This document shows, one piece after another, positions 20,789 through 43,488 of a DNA stretch of 64,000 bases (its first letter is position 1; each line of letters begins with the position of its first letter). A program made the translations under genes and the position numbers. Below the pieces are notes generated by a model. That model did not search any database. It was not told the origin of the DNA and worked only from the letters and a program-made list of their open reading frames with translations. Origin of the DNA: an uncultured Winogradskyella sp. (GTDB lineage: Bacteria; Bacteroidota; Bacteroidia; Flavobacteriales; Flavobacteriaceae); contig NZ_CALGNH010000006.1 of the NCBI RefSeq assembly GCF_937958655.1, positions 1 through 64,000 of the forward strand, given 5' to 3'.

Positions 20789-21238
20789 TTATGTTTTAGA
20801 ATATTGCGGTATGTCTTTTAAAAAAATATAACGTTGGTTAATTTTATCCATTTGGCAATAATAATGATTAATACCATTAGTTACCATTAAATAGTTAGCA
20901 TTTAGAGCTAAGTTATAACGTGCGATCTGATCAAAAGTGTTTTGAGATATTGCAACATCATAAGACTTACACTCAACAATTATAAAAATACTACCATCTG
21001 GATTAAAGACCACAACATCGTAGCGTTTTTTTAGATCATTAATAGCTAATTCTTTCTCAACATTGATTAGAGATTTAGGATATTTTTTATGTTCAATTAA
21101 AAAATGAACACAATGCTGTCTTACCCATTCTTCGGGCTGAAGAATGATGAATTTTTTCCGAATAACATCAAAAATAGAAACTTTATTTTCTGTACTTTTG
21201 AATCGGTATTCAAACTTTGGAAAGTTGAGTTTTTGCAC
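20789..21238 (-). CDS. orphan HsdR N-terminal-like (PD-(D/E)XK) protein
   Basis: It encodes 149 aa. The core KRYDVVVFNPDGSIFIIVECKSYD (read as Asp...Glu-Cys-Lys, about residues 72-95) is a PD-(D/E)XK nuclease active site as in the N-terminal domain of type I restriction R subunits. The usual helicase part is absent, and no hsdM or hsdS is nearby, so it is not a restriction system. It is followed at once by a glycosyltransferase gene and is divergent from holA with 48 nt between starts. I recall the same neighbourhood in other Bacteroidota, which suggests a housekeeping nucleic-acid role; that is from memory. Confidence 0.82.
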   Translation of the reverse strand: MQKLNFPKFEYRFKSTENKVSIFDVIRKKFIILQPEEWVRQHCVHFLIEHKKYPKSLINVEKELAINDLKKRYDVVVFNPDGSIFIIVECKSYDVAISQNTFDQIARYNLALNANYLMVTNGINHYYCQMDKINQRYIFLKDIPQYSKT

Positions 21239-21242
21239 TGCA

Positions 21243-21250
21243 CAAAATTA
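21243..21250 (-). promoter_or_regulatory. minus-strand promoter TTG-N20-TAATTTTG before the HsdR_N-domain gene
   Basis: Read on the minus strand, the -7 box TAATTTTG lies 4 nt before the start codon at 21238, and a TTG (21273-21271) stands 20 nt upstream of it. Both elements fit the Bacteroidota consensus, and the transcript would be essentially leaderless. Confidence 0.7.
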
Positions 21251-21286
21251 AAATTATAATACCACAACAGCAAACTATTTAAGCTT

Positions 21287-22294
21287 TTGGAGGACGTAAA
21301 ACAATTAGTTACAGCAATAAAGAAAGGGGATCTTAAGCCTATCTATTTTTTAATGGGTGAAGAAGCCTATTACATAGATAAGATTTCTCAGTTTATTGAA
21401 AATAATGTTTTAGAAGCGTCTGAAAAGGGGTTCAATCAAATGGTATTATATGGACGCGATGTTAGTGTAGATGATATTGTCAGTAACGCCAAGCGCTATC
21501 CTATGATGGCAGAACGGCAAGTGGTCATTGTGAAAGAAGCACAAGACTTAAGTAGAACTATAGAAAAACTTGCCAAATATGCCGAACAGCCTCAGCCTAC
21601 AACCGTACTCGTTGTTAATTACAAGTATAAAAAGTTAGATAAGCGTAAAGTACTTTACAAAGCCATTACAAAAAATGGAGGTGTAGTTTTTGAAAGTAAA
21701 AAACTTTACGAAAACCAAGTGCCAGATTGGATTAGACGTGTGCTAAAAGGTGATGGTTATGAAATTTCTCCTAAGGCAGCACTAATGTTGGTTGAGTTTT
21801 TAGGTACAGATTTAAGTAAAGTTAATAACGAGCTAAATAAGCTAAAGATAATATTGCCAAAAGGGACGCAAATAACACCAGATCATATTGAAGAAAATAT
21901 AGGTATTAGTAAGGATTTTAATAATTTTGAATTACGTAAAGCCGTCGGTGAACGCCATATTATTAAGGCCTACCAAATTGCAAAGCATTTTGCAGATAAT
22001 CCAAAGGATAATCCAATTGTAGTAACAGTGGCGTTGTTATTTAATTTTTTTTCGCAACTATTGCATCTACATGGCATGTCTGATAAAAACCCAAGAAGTG
22101 TGGCTTCTGCTTTACGTGTCAATCCCTATTTTGTAAATGAGTATTTAACGGCTGCTCGCAATTACCCTATGAAAAAGGTTAGTGCTAATATTGCATTATT
22201 ACGAGAATTCGATATTAAGAGTAAGGGTGTAGGTGCTAATAATATAAGCCAAGGAGATTTACTAAAAGAGCTCTTGGTAAGGCTGTTTAATTAG
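21287..22294 (+). CDS. holA: DNA polymerase III subunit delta
   Basis: It encodes 335 aa from a TTG start at 21287; homologues begin with the same EDVKQLV...KPIYFLMGEEAYYIDKI segment, so the start is well placed even though it is not ATG. The AAA+ domain (about 18-130) has the degenerate nucleotide-binding region of delta and MMAERQVVIVKEAQDL, followed by the lid and the C-terminal collar domain. Delta opens the beta clamp within the clamp loader. Its stop overlaps the convergent T9SS gene by 4 nt. It is divergent from the HsdR_N-domain gene. Confidence 0.95.
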   Translation: MEDVKQLVTAIKKGDLKPIYFLMGEEAYYIDKISQFIENNVLEASEKGFNQMVLYGRDVSVDDIVSNAKRYPMMAERQVVIVKEAQDLSRTIEKLAKYAEQPQPTTVLVVNYKYKKLDKRKVLYKAITKNGGVVFESKKLYENQVPDWIRRVLKGDGYEISPKAALMLVEFLGTDLSKVNNELNKLKIILPKGTQITPDHIEENIGISKDFNNFELRKAVGERHIIKAYQIAKHFADNPKDNPIVVTVALLFNFFSQLLHLHGMSDKNPRSVASALRVNPYFVNEYLTAARNYPMKKVSANIALLREFDIKSKGVGANNISQGDLLKELLVRLFN

Positions 22295-23382
22295 TTGATA
22301 ATAAGTTTTTTGTAAACCAAATTACCATTGGTTTTATCTTCAATTTTAGTAATGTAATATCCTGGTGAGATATTAGATACATCAATATGTCTTTCCTCAG
22401 AAGTTTTTATTAACTGACCGCTGGTGTCATATATGTCTGCCTTAAGATTATTGGTATTTAGCGTAATTATAGTGTTAGCAGGATTTGGATAAAACGAGAG
22501 TTTAGGCAATTGCAAATCTGAAGTACCTAGGGTAGAGGTACTAAATGTATACAAACCCGAAGCATTACTGGTGCTTTGCTCTGCCGTTATATAATAATCC
22601 TGCTCATTTATTACAGTAACAGCTTCAATTTGAGGTGAATAATTATTGGGTACACTAAGTGCTATTTTTGAAACGCTACCATTAGAAAATAATCCAGAAC
22701 TAAAATCCTTTAGTTCAATAATAAAAGCACCATTACTATCGTAACCTGTTAATAAAATAGCGTTATTGTTTGGGTTAAATTCCGCACCCGAAACTAATCC
22801 TTCTACTATTATTGTATCCATTGGTGAGATACTATAGTCACCAACTGTTTTAGGTAGCATGTAAATGTTTGTGTTTGTAGTTACCCAGTTTTTAGTGAAT
22901 ATATATAGGTTCTCATTATAGTGTATTAGCCCTTCAGCATCAAAATCTGTTGCAAATGGGCTAGGGGTAAAATTGGTTTGATTGTTATAACTAAAATTTA
23001 TAAGATCAGCAGTAACGGTATTACTTGCAAAAAAATCTGCAATTAAAATACGATAGACTTTAAGATTTGTTCTTGTGCCGCTGTTATTACCAATATCACC
23101 TATATAAATATAAGTATCGTCGTGTGTTATATCTTCCCAATCTACATTGGTAGCATTTGTAATGGTCACTGTTCTTATAACATTGCCGTTAGACGCGTCA
23201 ATTTCAAAAAGTTGATTGGTGTTTTCAGAATCGTTATGTGTAATAAGGCTGTTGTTAATAAAAATGAGACCAGATGTTTCGCTCACCGCAGGATCTAGAT
23301 TTGTTTGTAAGGTTAATTCTTGGCTATTAACAAAAGCCATAAACAAACCAACCAAAACAATAAAACTAGTATGTCTTTTCAT
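22291..23382 (-). CDS. secreted protein with type IX secretion C-terminal sorting domain
   Basis: It encodes 363 aa. A signal peptide (about 1-20, ending VNSQ) is followed by a beta-propeller-like region with repeated Asp/Asn-rich strands (VDWEDITHDDTYIYIGDIGN; FDAEGLIHYNENLYIFTKNW; GYDSNGAFIIELKD) to about residue 280. The last 75 or so residues are a type A T9SS sorting domain: LSFYPNPANT...LYDTSGQLIKT-like core and SPGYYITKIEDKT ending in KKLIIN. It is exported through the Sec and type IX systems and anchored to or released from the cell surface. The enzyme activity is unknown. Confidence 0.92.
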   Translation of the reverse strand: MKRHTSFIVLVGLFMAFVNSQELTLQTNLDPAVSETSGLIFINNSLITHNDSENTNQLFEIDASNGNVIRTVTITNATNVDWEDITHDDTYIYIGDIGNNSGTRTNLKVYRILIADFFASNTVTADLINFSYNNQTNFTPSPFATDFDAEGLIHYNENLYIFTKNWVTTNTNIYMLPKTVGDYSISPMDTIIVEGLVSGAEFNPNNNAILLTGYDSNGAFIIELKDFSSGLFSNGSVSKIALSVPNNYSPQIEAVTVINEQDYYITAEQSTSNASGLYTFSTSTLGTSDLQLPKLSFYPNPANTIITLNTNNLKADIYDTSGQLIKTSEERHIDVSNISPGYYITKIEDKTNGNLVYKKLIIN

Positions 23383-23555
23383 TATAAATTGTAATTACTT
23401 TATAAATGTAATTAATTGAAACCTCTAGCTTATAAAAAAGGCATAAGTCACCTATATTTAGGTTAAAATGAAATTTAATTAGTACTCTATTTACAGAAAG
23501 AAAATATTTTTTTAACTATGTAAAACTAAAGGCTAAGCTCAAATAGGATATTACA

Positions 23556-24851
23556 CTATGCTCTCTCTATTAAAAACGATTTTAGTGCATCATAAGAATT
23601 AATAGGTATTGCTACTTTCTTTTTATGAATAACAGATTCAATTTGTTTAGGCAGTTCAACCTTTTCTTCTATAACTGCCTCTACAACATCTAAAAATTTA
23701 GTAGGGTGTGCTGTTTCTAAAAACACAACATGGCTATCATTAGTTTCTAAATACGTTTTAGCGCCTAAGTAGCCAACAGCTCCGTGCGGATCTGCTATGT
23801 AATTGTAATCTTTAAATAATTCTAAAAGTGCTGTTTTGGTATCTGTATCTGAAAAGCTGTAGGATGATAAATTTGCTTTAAGGACTTCAAAATCATTATT
23901 GTGCAGTTCTTGTATACGGATAAAATTACTTGGATTACCAACATCCATGGCATTACTAATTGTCTGTACCGATGGTTTTGGTTCATAAGATTTTGTATCC
24001 ATATACTTAACAACAGTATCATTTGCATTATTAGACGCTATAAAGTGCTTAACTGGCAAACCTAGCTTTTGGGCTACCATGCCTGCGCAAATATTTCCGA
24101 AATTACCACTAGGAATAGAAAATGAAATATCCTTATAGGTTCCTTTTAATTGTTTGTATGCAAATAAATAATAGAATAATTGCGGTAACCAACGTGCTAC
24201 ATTAATTGAGTTGGCAGACGTTAATTGCATTTTGCTAGTCAGTTCATCATCCATAAATGCACGTTTTACCATGTCTTGGCAATCGTCAAATACACCATCA
24301 ACTTCTAAAGCTGTAATGTTTTGGCCTAACGTTGTGAGTTGTTTTTCTTGTATATCACTAACTTTACCACTCGGATATAATATGACCACATTAACCCCTT
24401 TTACTCCTAAAAAACCATTGGCTACAGCTCCGCCTGTATCACCAGATGTAGCTACTAAAACGGTAACTTCGTTGGTGTTATTTTTATTAAAATAACCTAG
24501 ACATCTTGCCATAAAACGTGCGCCAACATCTTTAAATGCCATTGTTGGTCCATGAAACAACTCTAATGTTGAAATATTTTTGTCGATGTTTACAATAGGA
24601 AAATCAAAATTTAAGGTGTCTTCAACTATGGTTTTTAGAACAGCTTCTGGTATTTCGGGTACGATAAATTGCTTAATAGCTTCAAACGCTATTTCTGCGT
24701 TAGATTTGTCCTTAATAGTTTCAAAAAATGAAGCTTCTAATGGTGTTATAGATTCCGGAAAATATAAACCTTTGTCTGGCGCTAAGCCTCTAACTACAGC
24801 ATCCGCAAAGGTAGTCTGAGGTGCTTTTCTATTAAGTGAATAATAATTCAT
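23556..24851 (-). CDS. thrC: threonine synthase
   Basis: It encodes 431 aa, PLP dependent, converting O-phosphohomoserine to threonine. The start MNYYSLNRKAPQTTFADAVV and the PLP lysine in ELFHGPTMAFKDVG (Lys107) are typical. VATSGDTGGAVANGF is the phosphate-binding loop, and SIPSGNFGNICAGMVAQ and the late DPHGAVGYLGAK also belong to the family. It is cytosolic and the last gene of the thrA-thrB-thrC operon. Its ATG overlaps the thrB stop by one base (TAATG). No terminator is visible in the 170 nt downstream. Confidence 0.97.
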   Translation of the reverse strand: MNYYSLNRKAPQTTFADAVVRGLAPDKGLYFPESITPLEASFFETIKDKSNAEIAFEAIKQFIVPEIPEAVLKTIVEDTLNFDFPIVNIDKNISTLELFHGPTMAFKDVGARFMARCLGYFNKNNTNEVTVLVATSGDTGGAVANGFLGVKGVNVVILYPSGKVSDIQEKQLTTLGQNITALEVDGVFDDCQDMVKRAFMDDELTSKMQLTSANSINVARWLPQLFYYLFAYKQLKGTYKDISFSIPSGNFGNICAGMVAQKLGLPVKHFIASNNANDTVVKYMDTKSYEPKPSVQTISNAMDVGNPSNFIRIQELHNNDFEVLKANLSSYSFSDTDTKTALLELFKDYNYIADPHGAVGYLGAKTYLETNDSHVVFLETAHPTKFLDVVEAVIEEKVELPKQIESVIHKKKVAIPINSYDALKSFLIERA

Positions 24852-25774
24852 TATAATGTTTTTATACCTTGGGTATTAATCTTAGAAACGTACGTTTCAA
24901 ATTCTATATCTGTTTTTGAGTAAACCTCTTGCATAGCAGATTCTACGGCTTTTGCAGTCGCTTCACTTTTACTCAATGCAAAAATTGAAGGTCCAGAACC
25001 AGAAATAGCACAACCTAATGCACCAGCATTGTTAGCTGCTAATTTAACAGCATCAAAATGCGGAATGAGTTGTTTACGGTGTGGTTCAATTACAACATCT
25101 ATTAAGGCTTCTTTTAGTAGGTCGTAATTATTGGTGTGTAGTGCATGCACCAGACTACCAACATTAGCCCATTGTGTAATAGCATGTTGAAGTGGAATTT
25201 GTTTTGGCAAGATGGCTCTAGACTCAGAGGTTTTTATTTCAATTTGTGGATGAATTAAAGTGGCAAAAATATCTGGCGGTGTTGGTAACTCTAAAACGTG
25301 TAAAGGACAAGCGCTCTTTACTAAAGTGAAGCCGCCAAAAATAGCTGGTGCTAAATTATCTGCATGTTCGCATTGGCTAGCTAGTGCTTCCCCTTTCATT
25401 GCATAGTAGGTAAGCTTTGTTTTATCTAAGGGTTTTCCCAATAATTCATTCATACCGTAAACACTACCTGCGGCACTAGCAGAACTACTGCCAATTCCAC
25501 TTCCGGGTTTAATGTTCTTATAAATTTCTATCTCAAAACCACAATCTGGTTGTAAGGCTTCATACATGGCCAATGCAGAAACACCAGCAACATTCTTCTC
25601 TGCTTCATATGGTAAATCATAACCTTCAATTTTAGTAATTCTTATACCTTTTTCTGCAGTTTTTCTTACTACCATTTCATCACCTATAGCGTCTAAGCAG
25701 TAGCCGAGCACATCAAATCCGCAGGCAACATTGGCTACTGTGGCAGGTGAAAATAGTCTTATTTCGTTATTCAT
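24851..25774 (-). CDS. thrB: homoserine kinase
   Basis: 307 aa from the Met at 25774. The longer open frame to 25813 runs back inside thrA, and MNNEIRLFSPATVANVACGFD matches the family start. It is a GHMP kinase: the ATP loop GSGIGSSSASAAGSVYG (about 81-97) and the C-terminal ALGCAISGSGPSIFAL glycine-rich motif are visible. It phosphorylates homoserine using ATP. The gene starts 25 nt after the thrA stop and shares a base with the thrC start, so the three proteins are made together. Confidence 0.97.
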   Translation of the reverse strand: MNNEIRLFSPATVANVACGFDVLGYCLDAIGDEMVVRKTAEKGIRITKIEGYDLPYEAEKNVAGVSALAMYEALQPDCGFEIEIYKNIKPGSGIGSSSASAAGSVYGMNELLGKPLDKTKLTYYAMKGEALASQCEHADNLAPAIFGGFTLVKSACPLHVLELPTPPDIFATLIHPQIEIKTSESRAILPKQIPLQHAITQWANVGSLVHALHTNNYDLLKEALIDVVIEPHRKQLIPHFDAVKLAANNAGALGCAISGSGPSIFALSKSEATAKAVESAMQEVYSKTDIEFETYVSKINTQGIKTL

Positions 25775-25799
25775 TTCTAATGGGTGCTTAATTTGTGAA

Positions 25800-28271
25800 C
25801 TAGCCGTTAGCAATTCTCATTATATCAGCAAACAAACCAGAAGCAGTAACATCTGCACCTGCACCTGCACCTTTAATAATCATTGGCTGATCTGGGTAAC
25901 GTTGGGTGTAGAACATTACAATATTATCTTTTCCTTCTAGATTAAAGAAGGGATGACTTTTTGGGATTTCTTTTAAACCAACTTTGGCTTTTCCGTTTTT
26001 AAATTCTGCTACAAACTTTAATTGACTGTTATTTTTTACGGCAGATTTATAAAGGCTTTGATAATGGCTTTCGTCTGATTTTAGTGTTTCAAAAAAGTCG
26101 GCAACGGTTGTTGCATTAACGGCATTATTGGTTAAAAAGTTATCTATATTAATATCCTCTAACTCTATTAAATGGCCACTTTCTCTTGCTAAAATTAAAA
26201 TTTTACGCGCTACATCAATACCACTTAAATCTATTCTTGGATCTGGTTCTGTATACCCTTCTTCCTGTGCTTGTTTTACGACCTCATAAAATGTAGTCTT
26301 GTCATTATACGTGTTAAATATAAAATTAAGACTACCAGATAAAACCGCTTCTATAGAATGTACCTTATCACCAGACGCTATGAGATGTCTTAAGGTGTCT
26401 ATAACAGGAAGCCCAGCGCCGACGTTAGTTTCAAACAAAAAAGCTGCATTATATTGCCTAGATAGTTGTTTTAAATCATTGTAATATTCAATAGAACTTG
26501 AGCAGGCAATTTTATTACACGCAACTACTGAAATACTTTGTTTTAAGTAGTTAGAGTATATGTTTGCAACATCTTTATTAGCCGTGATATCAACAAATAC
26601 AGAATTTCTTAGGTTAAGCTTTTTGGCATAATTAAAAAATCCGTCTAAAGTGGCGTCCTCACCTTCTAAAAGGTCATTTTTCCAACTGCTCAAATCAACT
26701 CCCTCATCGTTAACAAGCATTTTACGCGAGTTGGATAAGCCAATAACTCTGAGATTGATTTTAAAATGTTTTTTAATATAGGAATTCTGTTGTTTCAATT
26801 GTTCAATTAATCGTTCTCCGACGTTACCTACACCAGCAATAAAAAGATTAATTTGTTTATTCTTAATTTCAAAGAATTGTTCGTGCAGGCTGTTTAGTGC
26901 TTTTTTTACATCGTCTTTATGAACAACAGCAGATATATTACGTTCTGAAGCTCCTTGTGCTATAGCTCTAATATTTACATTATTTTTTCCTAAGGTGCTA
27001 AACATTTTACCACTGATGCCTTGGTGACTTTTCATTTTATCACCTACAACGGCTATGATTGATAAATTAGTTTCAACAACAATTGGATCTAATTTCTGAA
27101 GTGTAATTTCATACTCAAAAACAGTATCAATCAGTTCCTTTGCACGCTGAGCATCACTGTCTGAGATTGCAAAACAGATGGAATGTTCAGACGAGGATTG
27201 CGTAATGAGGACAATATTAATCTTTTCTTGTGCAAGCGTCTCAAATAAGCGTTTACTAAAGCCAGGAACACCTACCATACCATTGCCTTGCAGTGTTAAA
27301 AGCGCAATATTTTCTATATTACTAAGACCCTTTACGACCGAACCATTGCTTTTTACGGTTTCTATTATTGTGGTGCCTATCGCCTCTGGATCCATAGTGT
27401 TTTTAATACGTATAGGAATACCTTTTTTAAGAACTGGCATTACGGTTGGTGGATAAAGAACTTTGGCACCAAAATGCGAAAGCTCTATGGCTTCTTTATA
27501 AGATAACTCGCTAATAGGAGCAGCTTGCTTTACTAATTTTGGATTTGTTGTAAACATGCCACTAACATCTGTCCAGATTTGAAGTTCGTTAGCGTTTAAT
27601 GCGGATGCTATTATTGCGGCTGTATAGTCAGATCCGCCTCGTCCAAGTGTTGTTATTTCGCCAGTTGTAGATTTTGATACAAATCCAGGCAATAAAACGA
27701 TGGCATTAGTATTGGATTTAAAGTATGATTCAATATTAGAATTGGTTATTTTAAAATTAACATTAGCCTTGTTAAAATTAGAATCCGTAACAATGAGTTC
27801 TTGAGAATTTTTAATTTCAGAATCTAGATTGTGAGCTACTAGAGCGTATTGTATTATGGTGGAAGATAATTGTTCGCCAAAGCTTAATAATTTGTCTTTG
27901 GTTTTTGGTGTAAGCTCGTTAATTAAGTAAATTCCATCTAAAAGTTCTTTAAAGCTACTTAATTTTTCAGAAATTAAATCATACAATTCATTATGCTTTT
28001 CTTTAATGCTTGCGTTATCTTTAAACGAATCAAATAAACCTTCAATAACTTTATTGTGTTTAGACCAAATAGCATTGTAGCATTTTATGTAGCTTTGATC
28101 TTTTTGGCATGCTAAATCTGCAGCCTCTAATAATTTATCTGTAATACCACCCACAGCAGAAACAACGACAGCAATTTTAGAATCAGCTGATTGTGCTTTA
28201 AGAATGGATATAACTTTATTTATGTTTTTGGCAGAGCCTACGGAGGTTCCTCCAAATTTTAGGATTTTCAT
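25800..28271 (-). CDS. thrA: bifunctional aspartokinase / homoserine dehydrogenase
   Basis: It encodes 823 aa, as expected for the two-domain enzyme. Aspartokinase (1 to about 290): MKILKFGGTSVGS, the LGRGGSDYTAAIIA segment and LYPPTVMPVLKKGIPI. ACT domains (about 310-460): LTLQGNGMVGVPGFSKRLF and AVVGDKMKSHQGI, the likely threonine-binding region. Homoserine dehydrogenase (about 465-823): FIAGVGNVGERLIEQL (NAD(P) fold), SGSLNFIFNTY, EGYTEPDPRIDLSG and the end GAGAGADVTASGLFADI. It commits aspartate semialdehyde to threonine and is expected to be feedback regulated. A leader ORF precedes it. Confidence 0.97.
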   Translation of the reverse strand: MKILKFGGTSVGSAKNINKVISILKAQSADSKIAVVVSAVGGITDKLLEAADLACQKDQSYIKCYNAIWSKHNKVIEGLFDSFKDNASIKEKHNELYDLISEKLSSFKELLDGIYLINELTPKTKDKLLSFGEQLSSTIIQYALVAHNLDSEIKNSQELIVTDSNFNKANVNFKITNSNIESYFKSNTNAIVLLPGFVSKSTTGEITTLGRGGSDYTAAIIASALNANELQIWTDVSGMFTTNPKLVKQAAPISELSYKEAIELSHFGAKVLYPPTVMPVLKKGIPIRIKNTMDPEAIGTTIIETVKSNGSVVKGLSNIENIALLTLQGNGMVGVPGFSKRLFETLAQEKINIVLITQSSSEHSICFAISDSDAQRAKELIDTVFEYEITLQKLDPIVVETNLSIIAVVGDKMKSHQGISGKMFSTLGKNNVNIRAIAQGASERNISAVVHKDDVKKALNSLHEQFFEIKNKQINLFIAGVGNVGERLIEQLKQQNSYIKKHFKINLRVIGLSNSRKMLVNDEGVDLSSWKNDLLEGEDATLDGFFNYAKKLNLRNSVFVDITANKDVANIYSNYLKQSISVVACNKIACSSSIEYYNDLKQLSRQYNAAFLFETNVGAGLPVIDTLRHLIASGDKVHSIEAVLSGSLNFIFNTYNDKTTFYEVVKQAQEEGYTEPDPRIDLSGIDVARKILILARESGHLIELEDINIDNFLTNNAVNATTVADFFETLKSDESHYQSLYKSAVKNNSQLKFVAEFKNGKAKVGLKEIPKSHPFFNLEGKDNIVMFYTQRYPDQPMIIKGAGAGADVTASGLFADIMRIANG

Positions 28272-28333
28272 AATTGTAAATTTGTAATAATAAAAATATC
28301 GAATAGGACAAAAAAGGGTCGGAGAGCATATAC

Positions 28334-28438
28334 TTATAAATTACCCCAAAGGGTAATAATAGAAGAAATTATAACCGTAAAAAAAGACATCATTAAGGTG
28401 AGCTTTTGAGTTGATGATATGTTTAATTTTGTAGGCAT
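28334..28438 (-). CDS. thr operon leader peptide ORF (thrL-like)
   Basis: This ORF is 34 codons, starting at ATG 28438 and stopping at TAA 28336-28334, upstream of thrA. It contains five Thr and five Ile codons (29% of the peptide), with the run TVIISSIIT at residues 21-29. A consensus minus-strand promoter ends 7 nt before the ATG, so the transcript would begin almost at the start codon. A perfect 7-bp hairpin covers the last codons. This is what an attenuation leader for a threonine/isoleucine-sensitive operon looks like. The peptide is also hydrophobic (MMSFFTVIISSIITLW), so a small membrane peptide is the alternative. No homologue was checked. Confidence 0.55.
   Translation of the reverse strand: MPTKLNISSTQKLTLMMSFFTVIISSIITLWGNL
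28340..28357 (-). promoter_or_regulatory. hairpin at the end of the thr leader ORF
   Basis: ATTACCC (28340-28346) pairs perfectly with GGGTAAT (28351-28357) around a 4-nt loop. It overlaps codons 28-33 and so could be opened by a ribosome translating the leader. On the minus strand a GACCC followed by T6 lies further downstream (about 28303-28313) and could compete for the GGG arm, forming a weak terminator. The pairing is short, so this reading is tentative. Confidence 0.4.
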
Positions 28439-28445
28439 AAAGCAT

Positions 28446-28453
28446 CAAATGTA
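28446..28453 (-). promoter_or_regulatory. minus-strand promoter TTG-N19-TACATTTG of the thr operon
   Basis: On the minus strand the -7 box TACATTTG ends 7 nt before the leader ATG at 28438, and a TTG (28475-28473) lies 19 nt upstream, the textbook Bacteroidota spacing. I see no other TAnnTTTG box between here and thrA. Confidence 0.75.
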
Positions 28454-28574
28454 TTACATTTACGGATAGAAACAAACAAATGCTTTCTTTTTGAAGATTT
28501 GTCAAAAAAGTGACGTTTTAAATCCTAAAAACGAAATATAATTAGCCTAAAATAGAAGGTATTAAATAATTTAC

Positions 28575-30137
28575 ATGAAGCTATATTCTAAAGAACAAAT
28601 TTATACAGGTGATAAATTAACAGCAGAACGACAAAATATATCACCTATTGATTTAATGGAACGTGCAGGAACCCAAATTTTTAATTGGATTCATATGCGC
28701 ATGCAGGGTGCACAGGTACCAATACACGTATTCTGTGGTATTGGAAATAATGGAGGTGATGGTTTAGTTTTAGCAAGGCATTTAATAACCCACGGTTATA
28801 ATGTGATTACTTATATTGTAAATTGTAGTGATAAACGAACTAAAGGCTTTTTAACCAATTATGATCGAATAAAAGATGTTACCAAAGATTGGCCAAACGT
28901 GCTGAGTTGCGGAAGCGATTATTCAGATATCGTTATAGAAGAGCGAGACATTATAGTAGATGCAGTATTTGGTATAGGGCTTAATCGGCCACCTAATGAT
29001 TGGGTTGTAGGTTTATTTAAGCTTTGGAGCGCCTCAAAGGCATTTACCCTTTCTATAGATATACCATCTGGTTTATATACTGATAAGGCAGTTGAAGATA
29101 ATGAAGCTGTTGTTTTTGCAAATTATACTTTAAGTTTTCAATCGCCTAAGCTAGTTTTCTTTTTGCCTGAAACCGCTAAGTATACAATACAGTGGGAAGT
29201 TATAGATATTGGTATAGATAGAGCATTTTTAATGCAGACCGAAACAGAGGCTCAACTCATTTCTAAATTTGAGGTCTTACCAATTTACAAACCGAGAGAT
29301 AAATTTGCTCACAAGGGTGATTTTGGTCATGCCTTAATAGTGGGAGGTAGTTATGGTAAAATTGGAGCTGTAAATTTAGCAAGTAGAGCAGCTTTAAGTT
29401 CTGGCGCAGGCTTGGTAACAGCTTATATTCCTAAATGCGGTTACCATAGTATACAAGCGTCTTTACCAGAAGCAATGGTTATTACAAATGGTGAAGAGTT
29501 AATAGATACAATTCATTTTGATATAGAACCTAGCGTTGTTGGAATAGGTGTAGGAATGGGTACTGCTGACGCTACAATAAATGCTTTTGAAGTCTTTCTA
29601 AAATCAAATAAACTGCCATTAGTAATAGATGCTGATGGTTTAAATTGTTTAGCAAAAAAGAAAGCACTTTTAAAACTATTGCCAGAGCAAACTATATTAA
29701 CACCGCATCCAAAAGAACTAGAACGATTAATAGGGTCTTGGTCTAACGATTTTGATAAACTAAAGAAAGTAAAGGCCTTTTCTAACAAACACAACGTTAT
29801 TGTGCTAATTAAGGGAGCTAATTCTATAACGGTATTTGGGGATAAGTTATATATATATACTACAGGAAATCCTGGTTTAGCAACTGCAGGAAGTGGTGAT
29901 GTATTAACAGGGATAATAACAGGATTGGTTGCTCAAGGTTATTTACCGTTAGATGCAACTATTTTTGGTACGTACTTACATGGTAAGTCTGCGGATATAT
30001 CTTTAGAAGATTTTGGTTATCAAAGTTTAATTGCTAGCCATATTATTGAAGCATTAGGAATAGCCTATATAGACTTATTTAAGCAACCAGAACAAGAACA
30101 AGCCCAAGGCGAGAAACAAAAACAAAAACAAGATTAG
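28575..30137 (+). CDS. nnr: bifunctional NAD(P)H-hydrate epimerase / ADP-dependent dehydratase
   Basis: It encodes 520 aa. The N-terminal YjeF/epimerase domain (1 to about 215) has PIDLMERAGTQIFNWI, FCGIGNNGGDGLVLARHL and the conserved VDAVFGIGLNRP. The C-terminal carbohydrate-kinase-like dehydratase domain (about 235-505) has HKGDFGHALIVGGSYGKIGA, VIDADGLNCL, LTPHPKELERL and the catalytic GNPGLATAGSGDVLTGII. Together they repair hydrated NAD(P)H using ADP. It is cytosolic. The last 15 residues are a low-complexity Gln/Lys/Glu tail beyond the domain. It is monocistronic, with a terminator downstream and thr operon divergent upstream. Confidence 0.95.
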   Translation: MKLYSKEQIYTGDKLTAERQNISPIDLMERAGTQIFNWIHMRMQGAQVPIHVFCGIGNNGGDGLVLARHLITHGYNVITYIVNCSDKRTKGFLTNYDRIKDVTKDWPNVLSCGSDYSDIVIEERDIIVDAVFGIGLNRPPNDWVVGLFKLWSASKAFTLSIDIPSGLYTDKAVEDNEAVVFANYTLSFQSPKLVFFLPETAKYTIQWEVIDIGIDRAFLMQTETEAQLISKFEVLPIYKPRDKFAHKGDFGHALIVGGSYGKIGAVNLASRAALSSGAGLVTAYIPKCGYHSIQASLPEAMVITNGEELIDTIHFDIEPSVVGIGVGMGTADATINAFEVFLKSNKLPLVIDADGLNCLAKKKALLKLLPEQTILTPHPKELERLIGSWSNDFDKLKKVKAFSNKHNVIVLIKGANSITVFGDKLYIYTTGNPGLATAGSGDVLTGIITGLVAQGYLPLDATIFGTYLHGKSADISLEDFGYQSLIASHIIEALGIAYIDLFKQPEQEQAQGEKQKQKQD

Positions 30138-30146
30138 TAGATAAAG

Positions 30147-30174
30147 CCTTGATTAGTAATGAAGGTTTTTTTTT
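30147..30174 (+). terminator. intrinsic terminator after nnr
   Basis: CCTTGATT pairs with AATGAAGG with one G-G mismatch, loop AGT, followed by T9 (30166-30174). Confidence 0.7.
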
Positions 30175-30275
30175 GATACTAAACATAATTTTAAAAAAAC
30201 GTAGAACTGACTTATTAACAATGCGTTGCAAAATCAAATTTTATTCTCAATTTTGAGATAAGTAATTTACACGTA

Positions 30276-31811
30276 ATGGCTAATTATCATATTATATCCT
30301 CAGAGAAGTTAGATATTGTTACGATATATAACATTTTTAAGGATAACAAAAAGCTAAAACTTTCAGAAGCTTCTATAGCAAGTATTAATGCGTGTAAGAC
30401 TTATTTAAATGAGAAATTAGCAACCAATAAAACACCTATGTATGGCATAAATACAGGTTTTGGTTCATTATATGATGTAAAGATTTCTGATAAGGATTTA
30501 ACCAAACTACAAGAAAACCTTGTCATGTCTCATGCTTGTGGTACTGGAGATCGTGTTCCAGAATCTGTTGTTAAGGTTATGCTACTTCTAAAGATTCAAT
30601 CTTTGAGTTATGGACATAGTGGTGTGCAATTACAAACAGTAGAGCGTCTTATAGATTTTTTTAATAATGATATTTTTCCGTTTGTATTCACACAAGGTTC
30701 TTTAGGTGCTTCTGGTGATTTGGCACCGCTAGCACACTTGGCTCTACCACTATTAGGCAAAGGTAATGTTGTGCATAAAGGAGAGGTTTATGACGCGTCA
30801 GAATTATTAGATAATTTTGGCTGGCAACCTATACAACTCCAAGCAAAGGAAGGCTTAGCATTATTAAACGGAACACAGTTTATGAGTGCTTACGGTGTCT
30901 ATCTTTTGTTAATGTCTCATAAAACCTCGTACTTGGGAGATATCGTGGCAGCCATCTCTTTGGATGCGTTTGATGGAAGAATAGATCCATTTCATGATCT
31001 GGTGCATGAAGTAAGGCCACATCCAGGGCAGCGTAAAGTTGCTAAGCGTTTTAATGAGCTTTTAGCGGATAGTGAGCTTATAAAAAGAAAAAAACAACAC
31101 GTACAAGACCCTTATTCATTTCGTTGTATCCCTCAAGTACATGGGGCAACAAAGGATACTTTAGATTTTGTTGAAAAAGTGATTTTAACCGAAATTAATT
31201 CGGTTACCGATAATCCAAATATATTTTCTGAAGAAGATTTAATTATATCTGGAGGAAATTTTCATGGGCAGCCTTTAGCATTGGCCTTGGATTACTTAAA
31301 AATAGCTATGGCTGAAATTGGTAATATATCTGAGCGCCGTATTTTTCAGCTTGTTTCTGGGTTAAGAGGATTGCCTGCATTTTTGGTGGATAATCCTGGT
31401 TTAAATTCAGGGTTTATGATCCCACAATATACAGCAGCAAGTATTGTTAGTGCCAATAAACAATTGGCATCACCAGCCAGTATAGATAGTATAGTTTCTA
31501 GTAATGGGCAAGAAGACCATGTTAGTATGGGAGCTAATGCGGCAACACAAGCGTATACGCTCATTAGAAACGTAGAGCGCATTATAGCTATTGAGTTAAT
31601 GAATGCTTCGCAAGCTTTAGAGTTTAGAAGACCTCACAAAACGTCACCGTTATTAGAATCGTTTTTAAAACATTATCGAAAGGTAGTACCGTTTATAAAA
31701 GAAGATCAAATACTACATATAGATATTGAGGCTTCAATTCAATTTTTAAGAGATGTTGATATTGAAGTAGAAGAGTTATTTTTAAATAATTATGGAGTAG
31801 ACAAACACTAA
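30276..31811 (+). CDS. hutH: histidine ammonia-lyase
   Basis: It encodes 511 aa. The MIO cofactor triad Ala145-Ser146-Gly147 lies in GSLGASGDLAPLAHLALP, and the active-site Tyr loop is in YGINTGFGSLYDV. Substrate-selectivity residues read SH (Ser85-His86 in LVMSHACGTG), as in histidine ammonia-lyases; tyrosine lyases have different residues there. It deaminates histidine to urocanate. No hutU, hutI or hutG is in the window, so the rest of the pathway must be elsewhere. It stands alone between the nnr terminator and a convergent small gene 12 nt downstream. Confidence 0.93.
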   Translation: MANYHIISSEKLDIVTIYNIFKDNKKLKLSEASIASINACKTYLNEKLATNKTPMYGINTGFGSLYDVKISDKDLTKLQENLVMSHACGTGDRVPESVVKVMLLLKIQSLSYGHSGVQLQTVERLIDFFNNDIFPFVFTQGSLGASGDLAPLAHLALPLLGKGNVVHKGEVYDASELLDNFGWQPIQLQAKEGLALLNGTQFMSAYGVYLLLMSHKTSYLGDIVAAISLDAFDGRIDPFHDLVHEVRPHPGQRKVAKRFNELLADSELIKRKKQHVQDPYSFRCIPQVHGATKDTLDFVEKVILTEINSVTDNPNIFSEEDLIISGGNFHGQPLALALDYLKIAMAEIGNISERRIFQLVSGLRGLPAFLVDNPGLNSGFMIPQYTAASIVSANKQLASPASIDSIVSSNGQEDHVSMGANAATQAYTLIRNVERIIAIELMNASQALEFRRPHKTSPLLESFLKHYRKVVPFIKEDQILHIDIEASIQFLRDVDIEVEELFLNNYGVDKH

Positions 31812-31823
31812 AAGCAGCTAAGA

Positions 31824-32189
31824 TTAATTGACCAAAGCGACTGCCCATTTAAAAGCTTGTTCTAAACTCGAAAAAATTTCAAATGGTTTATTAAAAAATA
31901 ACTTTTCTATTTGTGCGTTTACCTTAGCCTGATGGTTTTCTGAAACTACAGCAAATCCTTTTAAATTTTCGATTTTAGCCGTTTCAAAATAGATTTTCGG
32001 ATCTACTGAATACGAGTTAACACGATGGGTAATGTAAACAAAGGGTTTATTAGCAAAATATTTATCAGTAACATTAACCAAAATCATATTGTGCTCTGGT
32101 GTAATGTTGATTCCTTCTTTTATAACAACAACGACATATTTGTCATAAATTGTCATGTCACAAAAGTCGAAAGTGAGGAAGTCTTTCAT
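31824..32189 (-). CDS. SpoIIAA/STAS-like protein, paralogue 2
   Basis: It encodes 121 aa, shorter than paralogue 1 at 8356 but with the same core: YVVVVIKEGINITPEH, then FVYITHRVNSYSVDPKIYFE (NRINSYSAS in the other). It is soluble and probably STAS- or SEC14-like in fold. The C-terminal EIFSSLEQAFKWA helix is typical of this flavobacterial group. It sits between hutH (convergent, 12 nt) and the clpC terminator. The role is unknown; two divergent copies in one window suggest different partners or ligands. Confidence 0.6.
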   Translation of the reverse strand: MKDFLTFDFCDMTIYDKYVVVVIKEGINITPEHNMILVNVTDKYFANKPFVYITHRVNSYSVDPKIYFETAKIENLKGFAVVSENHQAKVNAQIEKLFFNKPFEIFSSLEQAFKWAVALVN

Positions 32190-32220
32190 GGTTATGCACT
32201 ATTCTATGATTAGGGCCAAT

Positions 32221-32252
32221 AAAAAAACTCCTTCAATTGAAGGAGTTTTTTT
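32221..32252 (-). terminator. intrinsic terminator after clpC
   Basis: It is a perfect palindrome: A7-CTCCTTCAA (32221-32236) pairs with TTGAAGGAG-T7 (32237-32252). It lies downstream of clpC on the minus strand, and its symmetry would let it act in either direction. Confidence 0.9.
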
Positions 32253-32277
32253 AGTTAATCCTTACTGTTATTTTTAA

Positions 32278-34830
32278 TTAAGACTCTGTAGTCTCATTAG
32301 AACTTTTTACTTTTATTTTTAGCTCATCATTATTAGTGTCTAAATCCATAGTAATGGTATCACCTTCTTGGATTTTTGCATTAATAATTTCTTCTGCTAA
32401 TGCATCTTCTACATATTTTTGAATAGCTCTGTTTAGAGGTCTTGCCCCATACTGCTTATCAAATCCTTTATCTGCAATATAGTCTTTTGCTTTGTCTGTA
32501 AGTTTAAGATTATAACCTAAATCCTTGATTCTAGAAATTAATTTTACTAATTCAATATCAATAATTTTATTAATGTCTTCTTTCTCTAAAGCGTTAAATA
32601 CTATAACATCGTCAATTCTGTTTAAGAATTCTGGTGCAAATGCTTTTTTCAGTGCATTTTCTATAACAGCTTTTGCATAGTCTGTTTCTTGAGACTCCTT
32701 TGCTGAGGTGCCAAAACCAACACCAGTACCAAAATCCTTTAGTTTTCGAGCGCCGATATTTGACGTCATAATAATGATTGTATTTCTAAAATCAATTTTA
32801 CGACCTAAGCTATCTGTTAAGTAACCATCATCTAAGACTTGTAGTAGCATATTAAACACGTCTGGATGTGCTTTTTCTATTTCATCTAAAAGCACAACAG
32901 CATAAGGTTTACGTCTAATCTTTTCGGTTAACTGTCCACCTTCTTCATAGCCAACATAACCTGGAGGTGCACCAATAAGCCTAGATACAGCAAATTTTTC
33001 CATGTATTCACTCATATCTATTCTTACAAGAGCCTCGTTGCTGTCAAATAACTCATGCGCCAACACTTTAGCTAATTGTGTTTTACCAACACCTGTTTGG
33101 CCTAAGAATATAAACGAACCAATAGGTTTATTTGGGTCTTTAAGACCAGCTCTATTCCTTTGAATGGCTTTTACAACCTTAGCAACAGCATTATCCTGAC
33201 CAATAACTCTACCTTTAATAAGTTCTGGTAGTTGTGCTAACTTATTAAGCTCGGTTTGCGCTATTTTGTTTACAGGAATGCCTGTCATCATTGATACTAC
33301 ATCGGCTACATTGTCTTCGGTAACAACTTCTCTATGTAGTTTAGTTTCTTCTTCCCATTTAGCTTGTGCGGTAGCCAATTCTTTTTCGAGACGTTTTTCA
33401 TCATCTCTTAATTTTGCGGCCTCTTCATATTTCTGTTTTTTTACAACAGTATTCTTAGTTTCTTTAACTTTTTCAAGTTGTTGTTCTAATTCAAGGATTT
33501 GTTTAGGTACATCAATATTTGTTATATGAACACGAGAGCCAGCCTCATCTAATGCATCTATGGCTTTGTCGGGTAAAAATCGTTCTGTCATATAACGATT
33601 TGTTAGTTTTACACAAGCTTCAATAGCTTCATCCGTATAATCAACGTTATGATGTTCTTCGTACTTAGACTTAATATTATTAAGGATTTCAATAGTTTCT
33701 TCAACCGAAGTAGGTTCTACAATGACCTTTTGAAAGCGGCGCTCTAATGCTCCATCTTTTTCAATATATTGTCTGTATTCATCTAAAGTTGTTGCTCCAA
33801 TACATTGAATTTCGCCTCTAGCTAGAGCTGGTTTAAACATATTTGAAGCATCTAAACTTCCGGTTGCGCCACCAGCACCAACAATGGTATGAATTTCATC
33901 TATAAAAAGAATAATATCATCATTCTTTTCTAGCTCGTTCATAACAGCTTTCATCCGTTCTTCAAACTGACCTCTATATTTTGTTCCTGCGACTAGACTG
34001 GCTAAATCTAGTGTTACAACACGTTTGTTAAAGAGTGTACGAGATACTTTACGTTTAACTATACGCAGGGCTAAGCCCTCTGCAATTGCAGATTTACCAA
34101 CACCTGGCTCACCAATAAGTAATGGGTTATTCTTTTTACGCCTGCTTAATATTTGGGACACACGCTGAATTTCTTTCTCACGGCCTACAACAGGATCTAG
34201 TTTGCCTTCTTCGGCAAGAATAGTTAAGTCTCTACCAAAATTATCTAAAACAGGAGTTTTAGATTTTTTATTTGTTTTACCAGAGGTGCTGCCACCAAAA
34301 GGGTTTTGTTGTTTAGAATCTTCTTCGTTAATTTCATCGTCTGAGAAGGATTCTGCTTTTGGTTCGTCTAGGTAATCATCGTCACTTGTAATCATAGATT
34401 TAAATTCTTCTTTTACGTTATCATAATCTACCTTTAGCTTGTTTAAAAGCTTTGTGGTAGGATCATTTTCATTTCTTAAAATGCACAATAGTAAGTGTGC
34501 CGTATTTATTGACGTACTTTGAAATAATTTTGCTTCTAAAAAGGTGGTTTTTAAAGCACGCTCTGCTTGCCTTGTTAAGTGCAAGTTTTTTCTTTGGTTA
34601 GATATTGTGGTGATGTTTGGGTTTGCTGGACTTAAAATCTCAACCTTTCTTCTTAAATGATTAAGATCTACGTCCAATGAACCAAGAATATCAATGGCTT
34701 TACCATTACCATTGCGCAATAACCCAAGCATTAAGTGCTCAGTACCTATAAAATCATGACCCAAACGTAGGGCCTCTTCTTTGCTGTATGCTATAACATC
34801 TTTTACTCTAGGGGAAAAATTATCGTCCAT
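32278..34830 (-). CDS. clpC: ATP-dependent Clp protease ATP-binding subunit ClpC
   Basis: It encodes 850 aa. Two Clp N-repeats (1 to about 145, DFIGTEHLMLGLLRNGNG) are followed by an acidic linker. AAA+ 1 has Walker A GEPGVGKS (240-247) and sensor motifs. The middle domain contains a UVR motif (KQKYEEAAKLRDDEKRLEKE), the mark of ClpC rather than ClpA or ClpB. AAA+ 2 has GQTGVGKTQLAK and VLLDEIEKAHPDVFNMLLQV, then the C-terminal D2-small domain. It unfolds substrates for ClpP in the cytosol. It is divergent from gyrA with 263 nt between. The clpP gene is not in the window. Confidence 0.97.
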   Translation of the reverse strand: MDDNFSPRVKDVIAYSKEEALRLGHDFIGTEHLMLGLLRNGNGKAIDILGSLDVDLNHLRRKVEILSPANPNITTISNQRKNLHLTRQAERALKTTFLEAKLFQSTSINTAHLLLCILRNENDPTTKLLNKLKVDYDNVKEEFKSMITSDDDYLDEPKAESFSDDEINEEDSKQQNPFGGSTSGKTNKKSKTPVLDNFGRDLTILAEEGKLDPVVGREKEIQRVSQILSRRKKNNPLLIGEPGVGKSAIAEGLALRIVKRKVSRTLFNKRVVTLDLASLVAGTKYRGQFEERMKAVMNELEKNDDIILFIDEIHTIVGAGGATGSLDASNMFKPALARGEIQCIGATTLDEYRQYIEKDGALERRFQKVIVEPTSVEETIEILNNIKSKYEEHHNVDYTDEAIEACVKLTNRYMTERFLPDKAIDALDEAGSRVHITNIDVPKQILELEQQLEKVKETKNTVVKKQKYEEAAKLRDDEKRLEKELATAQAKWEEETKLHREVVTEDNVADVVSMMTGIPVNKIAQTELNKLAQLPELIKGRVIGQDNAVAKVVKAIQRNRAGLKDPNKPIGSFIFLGQTGVGKTQLAKVLAHELFDSNEALVRIDMSEYMEKFAVSRLIGAPPGYVGYEEGGQLTEKIRRKPYAVVLLDEIEKAHPDVFNMLLQVLDDGYLTDSLGRKIDFRNTIIIMTSNIGARKLKDFGTGVGFGTSAKESQETDYAKAVIENALKKAFAPEFLNRIDDVIVFNALEKEDINKIIDIELVKLISRIKDLGYNLKLTDKAKDYIADKGFDKQYGARPLNRAIQKYVEDALAEEIINAKIQEGDTITMDLDTNNDELKIKVKSSNETTES

Positions 34831-35093
34831 AGTATATTCCTTTCTGCATTAAAAATAATAAAAACATATGAGGTACATGTCAAAAACCATACCTTAAATA
34901 TTATACTTAGACGAAGAGACTAAAAAAGCATTTCAAATCAAAGTAAATAATAGGATACTTATTAACTAAAAAGATATTAAAAATTGTTAATAAAAACTAT
35001 TAAAAACTGTTTTTCTATCCGTTCTTAACACTGCCGAAATTCTTATATTAGCACGGTTTGAAAACCTACAACGAATACTAATTAATTTTATAT
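34831..35093. other. clpC-gyrA divergent intergenic region
   Basis: It is 263 nt and AT-rich. A TATATTAG (35045-35052) close to the -7 consensus lies 41 nt before gyrA and may be its promoter. I see no convincing -7 box for clpC, and no CtsR-like or CIRCE-like repeat. Confidence 0.4.
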
Positions 35094-37628
35094 ATGGCAG
35101 AAGGAGAAAAACTCATTCCAATTAACATTGAAGATGAAATGAAATCGGCTTACATTGATTACTCAATGTCAGTCATTGTGTCACGTGCGTTACCAGATGT
35201 AAGAGATGGTCTTAAGCCGGTGCATAGACGTGTACTATATGGTATGCATGAGCTTGGTGTTAGGGCTAATACAGCGCATAAAAAGTCCGCGAGAATTGTT
35301 GGTGAGGTTTTAGGTAAGTATCACCCTCATGGTGATACATCCGTTTATGACACCATGGTTCGTATGGCACAAGAATGGAGTCTACGTTATATGTTAATTG
35401 ACGGTCAAGGAAACTTTGGATCTGTAGATGGTGATAGTCCTGCAGCAATGCGTTACACAGAAGCACGTATGCGTAAGATTTCTGAGGACATGCTAGCAGA
35501 TATAGATAAGGACACCGTTGATCATAAGTTAAATTTTGATGATACCTTAGAAGAGCCAACAGTATTGCCAACACGCATACCAGGTTTATTAGTTAATGGA
35601 GCTTCTGGTATTGCAGTTGGTATGGCGACTAATATGCCACCTCATAACCTCACAGAGGTTGTTAATGGTACAATTGCATATATTGATGATAATGATATTG
35701 AAATTGATGAGTTAATGCAACATGTAAAGGCACCGGATTTTCCTACTGGAGGTACTATATATGGGTACGATGGTGTTAAAGAAGCATTTCATACAGGACG
35801 TGGTCGTATTGTAATGCGAGGCAAGGCTAATATCGAAGAAGTAAATGGACGCGAGTGCATCATCGTAAACGAAATTCCTTATCAAGTTAATAAAGCAGAC
35901 ATGATTAAAAAGACTGCTGATTTGGTTAATGATAAAAAACTAGAAGGGATTTCTACCATTAGAGATGAATCGGATAGAAACGGAATGCGTATTGTTTATG
36001 TTCTTAAGCGTGATGCTATTCCTAATATTGTTCTAAATAAATTATATAAATATACAGCACTTCAATCTTCTTTTAGTGTCAACAACATTGCTTTAGTAAA
36101 TGGTAGGCCTCAGCTTTTAAATTTAAAAGAGTTAATACATTATTTTGTAGAGCATAGACACGAGGTAGTGGTTAGACGCACAAAGTACGAGCTGCGTAAA
36201 GCAGAAGAACGCGCTCATATATTAGAAGGTTTAATTATTGCCTCAGATAATATAGACGAAGTAATTGCACTTATTAGAGCGTCTGCCAATGCTGAAGAAG
36301 CAAGAAACAAGTTGATTGAGCGTTTTGAGTTAACTGAAATACAAGCCAAAGCGATTGTAGAAATGCGTCTGCGTCAATTAACCGGACTAGAGCAAGATAA
36401 ACTAAGGGCTGAGTATGACGAATTGATGAAAACCATTGAAGATCTTAAAGATATTTTAGAAAAGAAAGATCGTCGTATGGATATTATTAAGTCAGAACTT
36501 GAGGTTGTGCGCGATAAGTATGGAGACGAGCGTCGTTCAATAATAGAATATGCAGGTGGGGATTTAAGTATCGAAGATATGATACCTAACGAGAAAGTAG
36601 TTATTACAATTTCTCATGCTGGGTACATAAAACGAACGTCACTTACAGAATATAAAACACAGAATAGAGGTGGAGTGGGGCAAAAAGCCTCTACAACCCG
36701 TAACGAGGATTTCTTAGAACATTTATTTGTAGGTACAAACCATCAGTACATGTTATTCTTTACACAAAAAGGAAAATGTTTCTGGATGCGTGTTTATGAG
36801 ATCCCAGAAGGCACTAAAACGTCTAAGGGTAGAGCAATTCAGAATTTGATAAATATTGAGCAAGATGATAAGGTAATGGCCTTTATCTGTACTCAAGACT
36901 TGAAGGATGAAGCGTATATTAACAGTCATTATGTCATAATGGCAACCAAAAAAGGTCAGGTTAAGAAAACAGCTTTAGAACAGTATTCTAGACCACGTAC
37001 CAATGGTATTAATGCCATTACGATAAAAGAAGATGATACCTTATTAGAAGCCAAACTAACCACAGGAGAAAGTCAAGTAATGTTAGCCTTAAAGTCTGGT
37101 AAGGCCATTCGTTTCGAAGAAGCTAAAACAAGGCCAATGGGCAGAAATGCCTCTGGTGTAAGAGGTATTACACTAGGTCATGAAAAAGATGAAGTCATAG
37201 GTATGATTGCAGTAAACGACATGGAAAGTAATATTCTTGTAGTGTCTGAAAACGGTTATGGAAAACGCTCTAGTTTAGAGGATTACAGAGTTACCAATAG
37301 AGGTGGAAAAGGTGTAAAAACTATTTCTATAACAGAAAAAACAGGTAATTTAGTATCTATAAAGAACGTTACAGACGAAGATGATTTAATGATTATCAAT
37401 AAATCTGGTATAGCGATTCGTATGGAAGTAGCCGACTTAAGAGTAATGGGTAGAGCAACCCAGGGTGTTAAACTCATTAACTTAAAAGGTAAAGATTCTA
37501 TTGCAGCAGTCGCTAAAGTGATGAAAGATGAAGATGAAGAAACCGACGAGAGCGATATTGAAGTATCAGAAAACCAAGATACTACAGAAAATGGCACGGC
37601 TCTTGATACTAATGAAACAGAAAACTAA
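35094..37628 (+). CDS. gyrA: DNA gyrase subunit A
   Basis: It encodes 844 aa. The N-terminal breakage-reunion domain has [36 protein letters not shown] and the catalytic Tyr121 in [11 protein letters not shown]. coli positions 83 and 87 correspond to Thr82 and Asp86. The coiled-coil gate precedes the C-terminal beta-pinwheel, where [10 protein letters not shown] and later [10 protein letters not shown] are GyrA-box-like repeats; this marks gyrase rather than ParC. The tail from about residue 810 is acidic. It works with GyrB, which is not in the window. A TPR protein gene follows after 29 nt. Confidence 0.97.
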
Positions 37629-43274: not shown

Positions 43275-43294
43275 CAAAATGATAACCGATTTTT

Positions 43295-43369: not shown

Positions 43370-43488
43370 CAAATAGCTTAAATAAGATTTGTTGAAATTT
43401 AGTTTCTCAAAAATTATTTTAAGCTTTTGCAAAAAGTAATACGTTTTGCATTAACTCTTTTCAAAATCAGCATAACTGATCTTTGAAT

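Follow-up and report, generated by a model that had tools for sequence, protein, structure and literature searches.

We identified a putative leader upstream of the threonine biosynthesis genes thrABC of an uncultured Winogradskyella sp. and its relatives in the Flavobacteriaceae, which is probably a ribosome-mediated attenuator of the Thr-codon leader type. Of 223 distinct regions upstream of thrA, 175 contain a Thr/Ile-rich ORF that runs into a hairpin (P1) at its stop codon, while none of 223 shuffled and none of 223 reverse-complemented regions yielded a leader with this hairpin. Judged by these comparisons, the arrangement upstream of thrABC is real and beyond chance. The missing strong terminator and the stop-codon hairpin make the proposed thr leader a variant of leader-peptide attenuation.

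The thr locus of the window

The window, by which we mean the whole stretch of 64,000 nucleotides that was analysed, carries the thr genes on its minus strand: thrA, encoding a bifunctional aspartate kinase/homoserine dehydrogenase (25800..28271; NF006959, 1040.9 bits with a cut-off of 726), thrB, encoding homoserine kinase (24851..25813; TIGR00191 and NF002288, above cut-off), and thrC, encoding threonine synthase (23556..24851; TIGR00260, 277.6 bits with a cut-off of 167.1). The leader is positioned directly before this cognate biosynthetic operon, identified as thrABC by the family models. The window also has, at 43191-43563, three clustered tRNA genes, those for Ser(GCT), Pro(TGG) and Arg(TCT).

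The leader ORF MPTKLNISSTQKLTLMMSFFTVIISSIITLWGNL (28334..28438, minus strand, as are all features below) has 34 codons, including 5 Thr and 5 Ile codons, and ends with a TAA stop codon at 28336-28334. Its ATG at 28438 lies 7 nt behind the −7 promoter element TACATTTG (28446..28453), which is separated by a 19-nt spacer from the −33 element TTTG (28473-28476). P1, a perfect 7-bp hairpin (ATTACCC-TTTG-GGGTAAT, 28340..28357), overlaps the last codons; its 5' arm holds the last Thr codon and the stop codon starts 3 nt after the stem. The ATG of thrA at 28271 is 62 nt beyond the leader stop codon. An earlier note on this DNA had described a minus-strand promoter 7 nt before an ATG, the 34-codon ORF with its Thr and Ile codons, the perfect hairpin over its last codons and the absence of any further −7 box ahead of thrA; all four are borne out, the last by the absence of TAnnTTTG between leader and thrA.

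The 64-kb window has 110 TAnnTTTG sites, with 13 ORFs of 12-60 codons that begin no more than 30 nt away from such a site; among these 13 promoter-linked small ORFs the leader has the highest Thr count. Compared with its shuffles the window leader folds in an ordinary way (z −0.04), so the evidence for the leader must be comparative.

Conservation of the leader and its hairpin

The thrA upstream regions comprised 258 loci, of which 223, the window's own among them, were distinct. They were picked by ThrA similarity, using the best-ranked matches from searches of 60 and 397 genomes plus 80 named loci, and because selection followed similarity rank, distant members are under-sampled. The detector called a Thr/Ile-rich ORF with a Thr codon inside a GC hairpin and a stop codon −14 to +20 nt from the hairpin; the Thr codon in the hairpin and the nearby stop codon are therefore partly built into the detected set, and both controls were scored under the same rules. 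Three versions of the detector found 129, 166 and 175 leaders in the 223 regions, and the second (166) underlies the promoter-frame Thr/Ile statistics, the codon-position test and the counts of the pyrimidine motif and of intergenic TAnnTTTG given below. Among the 48 undetected regions, five (L071, L079, L110, L233 and L251) visibly carry a leader that misses one criterion, so 175 is a lower count. In L071 and L079 the leader apparently starts with GTG, not ATG. The earlier note had made its reading depend on conservation in close relatives, and the Thr/Ile leader with its stop-codon hairpin is indeed kept through the Flavobacteriaceae.

In the 161 leaders with a promoter, Thr accounts for 18.8% in frame, as compared to 4.8% and 2.4% in the other two frames, and Ile for 15.2%, as compared to 8.7% and 3.8%. 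The Thr codons cluster in the final seven codons up to P1, with peaks at codons −6 to −3, −1 and 0 before the hairpin, position 0 being filled by construction. Most leader ORFs are 27-39 codons long, and with this frame enrichment the putative ORF has the character of an attenuator leader, short and rich in cognate codons. A comparison of codon positions, used to look for purifying selection acting on the peptide, gave p 0.07, and synonymous changes were not in excess in frame (76/282, versus 66/278 and 66/283 out of frame), so the case for translation is one of composition and frame only. The last leader residues differ among relatives (TLWG, TRLG, TLRG, TPLG and TR-stop), which makes the RNA, not the peptide end, look conserved; a peptide-arrest model was rejected on account of this variation.

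A GC core of 4-5 bp is present in P1 of all 175 leaders, as the detector demands. Loops vary (TTTG, CTTG, TTTT, TTT, GTTA and others) and the outer pairs switch between A-U and U-A, the fifth position being paired in 127 and the sixth in 123 of the 175. In 161/175 leaders the stop codon begins inside P1 (loop or 3' arm) or 0-3 nt past the stem, within the −14 to +20 nt that the detector permitted.

Predicted transcript start

TAnnTTTG is found 1-24 nt ahead of the leader ATG in 161 of the 175 detected leaders. The distance from this −7 element to the ATG is 7 nt in 30 of the 161 and 16-24 nt in 106. Among the leaders listed for the first detector version, those with 7 nt come from loci of the window's genus, contigs of Winogradskyella and a single MAG. 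Transcription in Flavobacterium johnsoniae starts 4-5 nt after the −7 element (PMC6847099), which predicts a start at 28441 or 28440 in the window and a 5' UTR of 2-3 nt. In the trp leaders of the genus the start codon follows the −7 element by about 8-10 nt (by eye). About 3.7% of the 5' UTRs of Bacteroides thetaiotaomicron are shorter than 10 nt (PMC7366714) and a leaderless share of 5.5% is reported for F. psychrophilum (PMC9723704); near-leaderless transcripts do occur in the phylum, but only as a minority. The near-leaderless start proposed earlier thus holds for the window, as a prediction, and fails as a general trait in view of the 16-24 nt spacing of most promoter-bearing leaders; it is predicted to be typical of the window's genus and not of most other genera. 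A start between ORF and thrA, which the earlier note had set against its own reading, finds no support in the window, which has no intervening TAnnTTTG. Such a site lies between leader stop codon and thrA in 32/166 leaders, and in 0/27 of those with the window's spacing. The P2 region (see below) had been considered as a second promoter, a candidate dropped because TAnnTTTG occurs between stop codon and thrA in only these 32.

RNA elements between P1 and thrA

Behind P1, the window contains a pyrimidine motif ATATGCTCTCCGACCC (28316..28331), a GACCC-T6 segment (28320-28310) and a second hairpin P2 (TGTC-CTATTC-GATA, 28297..28310), which is degenerate here, with about 4 pairs. The pyrimidine motif, between P1 and P2, has a pattern conserved in relatives: its loose form ATAT..YYC occurs within 60 nt of P1 in 137/166 leaders versus 20% of shuffled segments, it aligns in two groups of relatives, and it sits at a nearly constant distance behind P1. 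A search for a pairing partner of the motif found none, and a polymerase pause site would fit. P2 follows about 10 nt after the motif (by eye). A set of 40 relatives from one group shows both-sided changes at 6 of the 8 P2 pairs, and P1 and P2 together have a covariation score of 0.157 versus 0.102 for shuffles, with 0/500 shuffles as high (40 sequences). In the Winogradskyella group P2 is followed by a U-rich stretch. The leader stop codon is 147-174 nt from thrA in L083, L089, L099 and L123, versus about 82 nt otherwise; these four have about 65-90 nt extra between P2 and thrA, which may be a small repeat element.

A covariance model of P1, motif and P2, run on 120 genomes at E 0.01, gave a single match in each of 29. 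Judged by their coordinates, 25 of these matches lie within 250 nt upstream of thrA; for the other four (G070, G077, G089 and G115; E 0.0016-0.008) there is no thrA position among the matches listed. The model misses the window's own locus and is therefore too narrow for mapping the element.

Terminators and alternative helices

We defined a strong terminator as a hairpin that reaches −9 kcal/mol or better and has 5 U in the next 8. Downstream of P1, none of the 175 thr leaders has a strong intrinsic terminator, as compared to 20/20 trp and 13/13 his leaders that served as positive controls (33/33), the his set being the 13 of 29 hisG loci with a His-codon run. In the window's own genome, the trp leader (L322) and the ilv leader before ilvD (L310, −13.6 kcal/mol) both have a strong terminator. 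For ilv, any hairpin in 420 nt was accepted, so that 11/19 is not a leader count, and our statements on ilv come from reading L288, L294, L299, L305 and L310. These five have Ile-rich ilv leader ORFs, and they and the his leaders (L262 and others) end in strong terminators; a pattern search found no his leader before the genome's own hisG (L268). The trp and ilv leader peptides of the genome and the his ones of its relatives indicate that leader-peptide control is in use there.

P1 itself, with its AU-rich tail, satisfies a lax terminator test in 11/175 leaders, and a hairpin inside the ORF does so in 5/175. A terminator scan of 28200-28600 in the window found none. The GACCC-T6 segment to which the earlier note had drawn attention exists in the window; as a terminator it would be very weak (−4.5 kcal/mol), and it is not conserved, since most relatives have GTCCC and then variable bases at its position (28 aligned sequences). 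Nor does the 3' arm of P1 pair with the next 36 nt any better than with shuffled sequence (duplex energy, mean z 0.06 in 166 leaders). No antiterminator helix was found by pairing probabilities (two group alignments, taken whole and from P1), by column-pair covariation or by duplex energies. Only P1 and P2 stand out in this search, and the switch itself is thus unseen in the sequence. Three pairings noticed by eye, between the 5' arms of P1 and P2, between the thrA start and the pyrimidine motif, and between an early leader segment and the segment before the Thr cluster, were dropped as confined to a single clade each. Having found neither an intrinsic terminator nor an exclusive antiterminator helix, we do not claim an attenuator of the classical terminator type.

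Base composition and Rho

Between P1 and thrA, C exceeds G in 168 of 169 leaders, with means of 16.3% C and 6.4% G; the C-rich, G-poor stretch of the window (28272..28339) has 12 C and 5 G in 68 nt. In the 80 nt before start codons, C exceeds G for 36% of window genes (n = 25) and 51% of genes at the his, ilv and trp loci (n = 118), with a control range of 36-52%, and in 63% of 57 leaderless thrA upstream regions (second detector). The RNA that follows the 13 his leaders shows, on average, no such skew. Part of it may come from avoidance of G before start codons. Rut sites are described as RNA that lacks structure, contains YC dinucleotides and has a high ratio of C to G (PMC12121999), and the excess of C over G in 168/169 leaders, and in 10/13 outside the family, might mark a rut-like stretch, composition alone being no proof of rut. 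The rho gene (TIGR00767 above cut-off) is present in 40/40 genomes, the window's own included. As no intrinsic terminator was seen, we tentatively favour a thr leader that would end transcription with the help of Rho, a reading drawn from composition and the missing terminator.

Loci next to ilvA and in other families

The end of ilvA lies within 600 nt upstream of thrA in 10 regions (L024, L025, L027, L029, L030, L232, L234, L235, L257 and L258), and a P1 leader is found in 0/10 of these (Fisher p 1e-7, relatedness ignored). The first five are from the window's genus, and in them the ilvA ORF ends 17-20 nt before thrA; in L024 the upstream ORF is IlvA by model, and two of these genomes have ilvD on the contig that carries thrA, about 7 kb upstream of it. 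Because the ilvA end is so shortly upstream of thrA, the thr genes appear to be joined to the ilv operon in the ilvA-adjacent loci. L257, from within the family, carries a Thr leader of another kind, which does have a strong terminator (−14 kcal/mol).

A further 41 regions, less L345, L346, L347 and L349 (no ThrA start pattern) and L377 (incomplete sequence), left 36 extra regions upstream of thrA; 34 belong to other families in the order and class, and 2 to the family itself. Read by eye, 15 of the 36 have a stop-codon hairpin (13 outside the family), 5 have strong-terminator leaders, all outside the family (L364, L367, L369, L370 and L374), and 16 have neither clearly; for L353, L376 and L380 the frame read by eye is not the one chosen by the automatic translation. 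From P1 to thrA, C exceeds G in 10 of the 13 outside-family leaders and in both family ones of this set, and 3 of the 13 are without skew. In L363, L368, L372 and, less clearly, L371 the strand order of the hairpin is reversed (ACGGG..CCCGT) and the stop codon is in the loop; in the form ACGGG-GTAA/GTGA-CCCGT, the Thr-rich leader ends in a hairpin whose GNRA-like tetraloop contains the stop codon.

Proposed mechanism and alternatives

The earlier note had suggested that ribosome stalling on the Thr/Ile peptide controls thrABC, and the conserved leader and stop-codon hairpin fit such ribosome-mediated control. When charged Thr-tRNA, and perhaps Ile-tRNA, is scarce, the ribosome would stall on the Thr cluster and thrABC would be transcribed. 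With plentiful charged Thr-tRNA, the ribosome would reach the stop codon at P1 and leave, and transcription would end before thrA. A Rho step could work roughly as in tnaC: the stalled ribosome would cover the Thr-codon half of the rut-like stretch, and release at the stop codon would expose the stretch. P1 may pause RNA polymerase or report the presence of a ribosome at the stop codon. It is conceivable, and we put it forward with reserve, that the leader represents a separate class of Bacteroidota attenuators, in which the stop-codon hairpin, in place of a terminator and antiterminator, would report completed reading of the Thr codons and Rho or a pause at the pyrimidine motif would decide, while the trp, his and ilv leaders of the genus keep ordinary terminators.

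A classical attenuator, in which P1 competes with a downstream hairpin (GGGG..GACCC-T6, P2 or P1 itself) and an intrinsic terminator stops transcription, is unlikely here. Thr leaders with strong terminators do exist, one in the family and five elsewhere, the AU-rich tail lets P1 pass the lax test in the 11 leaders mentioned, and the Winogradskyella group has its U-rich stretch after P2. Against this stand the count of strong terminators downstream of P1, 0/175 under a definition that recovers every trp and his control, the empty scan around the window's leader and the duplex energies of the P1 3' arm, which are those of shuffled sequence; pairing of GGGG with GACCC would, moreover, by our reasoning give regulation of the wrong sign. 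We consider it rather improbable that the leader acts instead on the translation or stability of the thrA mRNA, with stalling that alters structure at the thrA start or with reinitiation. Stalling on the uORF of E. coli toiL-topAI does unmask a ribosome binding site (PMC12121999), and the absence of a strong terminator would agree with such a role, but no conserved helix reaches the thrA start, and the 147-174 nt between stop codon and thrA in four loci are ill-suited to a local RNA switch or reinitiation and so speak against direct action on thrA translation.

That P1, motif and P2 form a structured RNA, a protein-binding leader or riboswitch to which the ORF is incidental, would account for the covariation of P2, the conserved motif between the hairpins and a peptide that is not under detectable purifying selection. 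We regard it as very unlikely, since Thr codons are enriched in one frame only, the ORFs keep mostly to 27-39 codons, the stop codon of 161/175 leaders begins inside P1 or within 3 nt after it, and no Rfam family matches. Least probable by far is a chance ORF, or a later thrA start site that leaves the ORF outside the transcript: the 32 leaders with TAnnTTTG between stop codon and thrA could point that way, but none of the 27 with the window's spacing is among them, the window itself has no such site, and 0/446 control sequences yield a leader of this kind.

Ribosome-mediated attenuation by a Thr-codon leader, the reading that we consider well supported, would propose regulation of thrABC for a large, mostly marine group. 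A widespread thr leader that lacks a strong terminator, in a genus whose trp, his and ilv leaders do bear terminators, offers a clean natural comparison of the read-outs of stalling and makes Rho-dependent attenuation in Bacteroidota directly testable. The leader also draws attention to a small gene short enough to be lost to a length cut-off.

Comparison with known systems

In E. coli a leader peptide with Thr and Ile codons lies just upstream of thrABC. The putative Winogradskyella leader shares with enterobacterial thrL (RF00506) such a peptide just before thrABC. It differs in that the model does not match it, no strong terminator follows, the hairpin is placed at the stop codon and the predicted start is near-leaderless. 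The RF00506 Thr leader model found no match in the whole window at gathering score, nor in 20000-36000 at E up to 1, and no Rfam family matched at the leader locus. Bacteroidetes were reportedly included in the 2004 attenuator survey by Vitreschak and colleagues. We found no report of a thr leader in Bacteroidota in the open-licence literature. Attenuator motifs of the thr type may originate in gammaproteobacteria, as suggested in PMC3766115. For F. psychrophilum, clues to attenuation upstream of amino-acid operons have been described, with family-conserved structured 5' elements that include those of pheA and hisG; the word threonine is absent from the main text of that paper (PMC9723704).

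The Bacteroid-trp RNA (RF01692) is already published (PMC2864571); its family has no match in the window and is present elsewhere in the genome (G000:C63). Bacteroid-trp and the his and ilv leaders of relatives resemble the thr leader in being short, carrying cognate codons and preceding the cognate operon, and Bacteroid-trp also in its start codon about 8-10 nt after TAnnTTTG (by eye). A strong GC-rich terminator closes each of these trp, his and ilv leaders, but not the thr leader. The six strong-terminator thr leaders (L257 in the family and the five outside it) likewise have Thr/Ile codons in a short leader before thrA, with few Thr in L370, but differ in the strong terminator before thrA, and no stop-codon hairpin was noticed in them (by eye).

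In E. coli tnaC, a rut-like stretch follows the leader and the stop codon is the decision point (PMC8429421). The thr leader would have in common with tnaC a rut-like stretch, here a candidate one, behind a leader whose stop codon decides. The stop codon of the thr leader is, however, covered by a hairpin and its Rho dependence is putative, and whereas it is excess Trp that makes the ribosome stall at the stop codon of tnaC, the ribosome on the thr leader would stall on the Thr codons in starvation.
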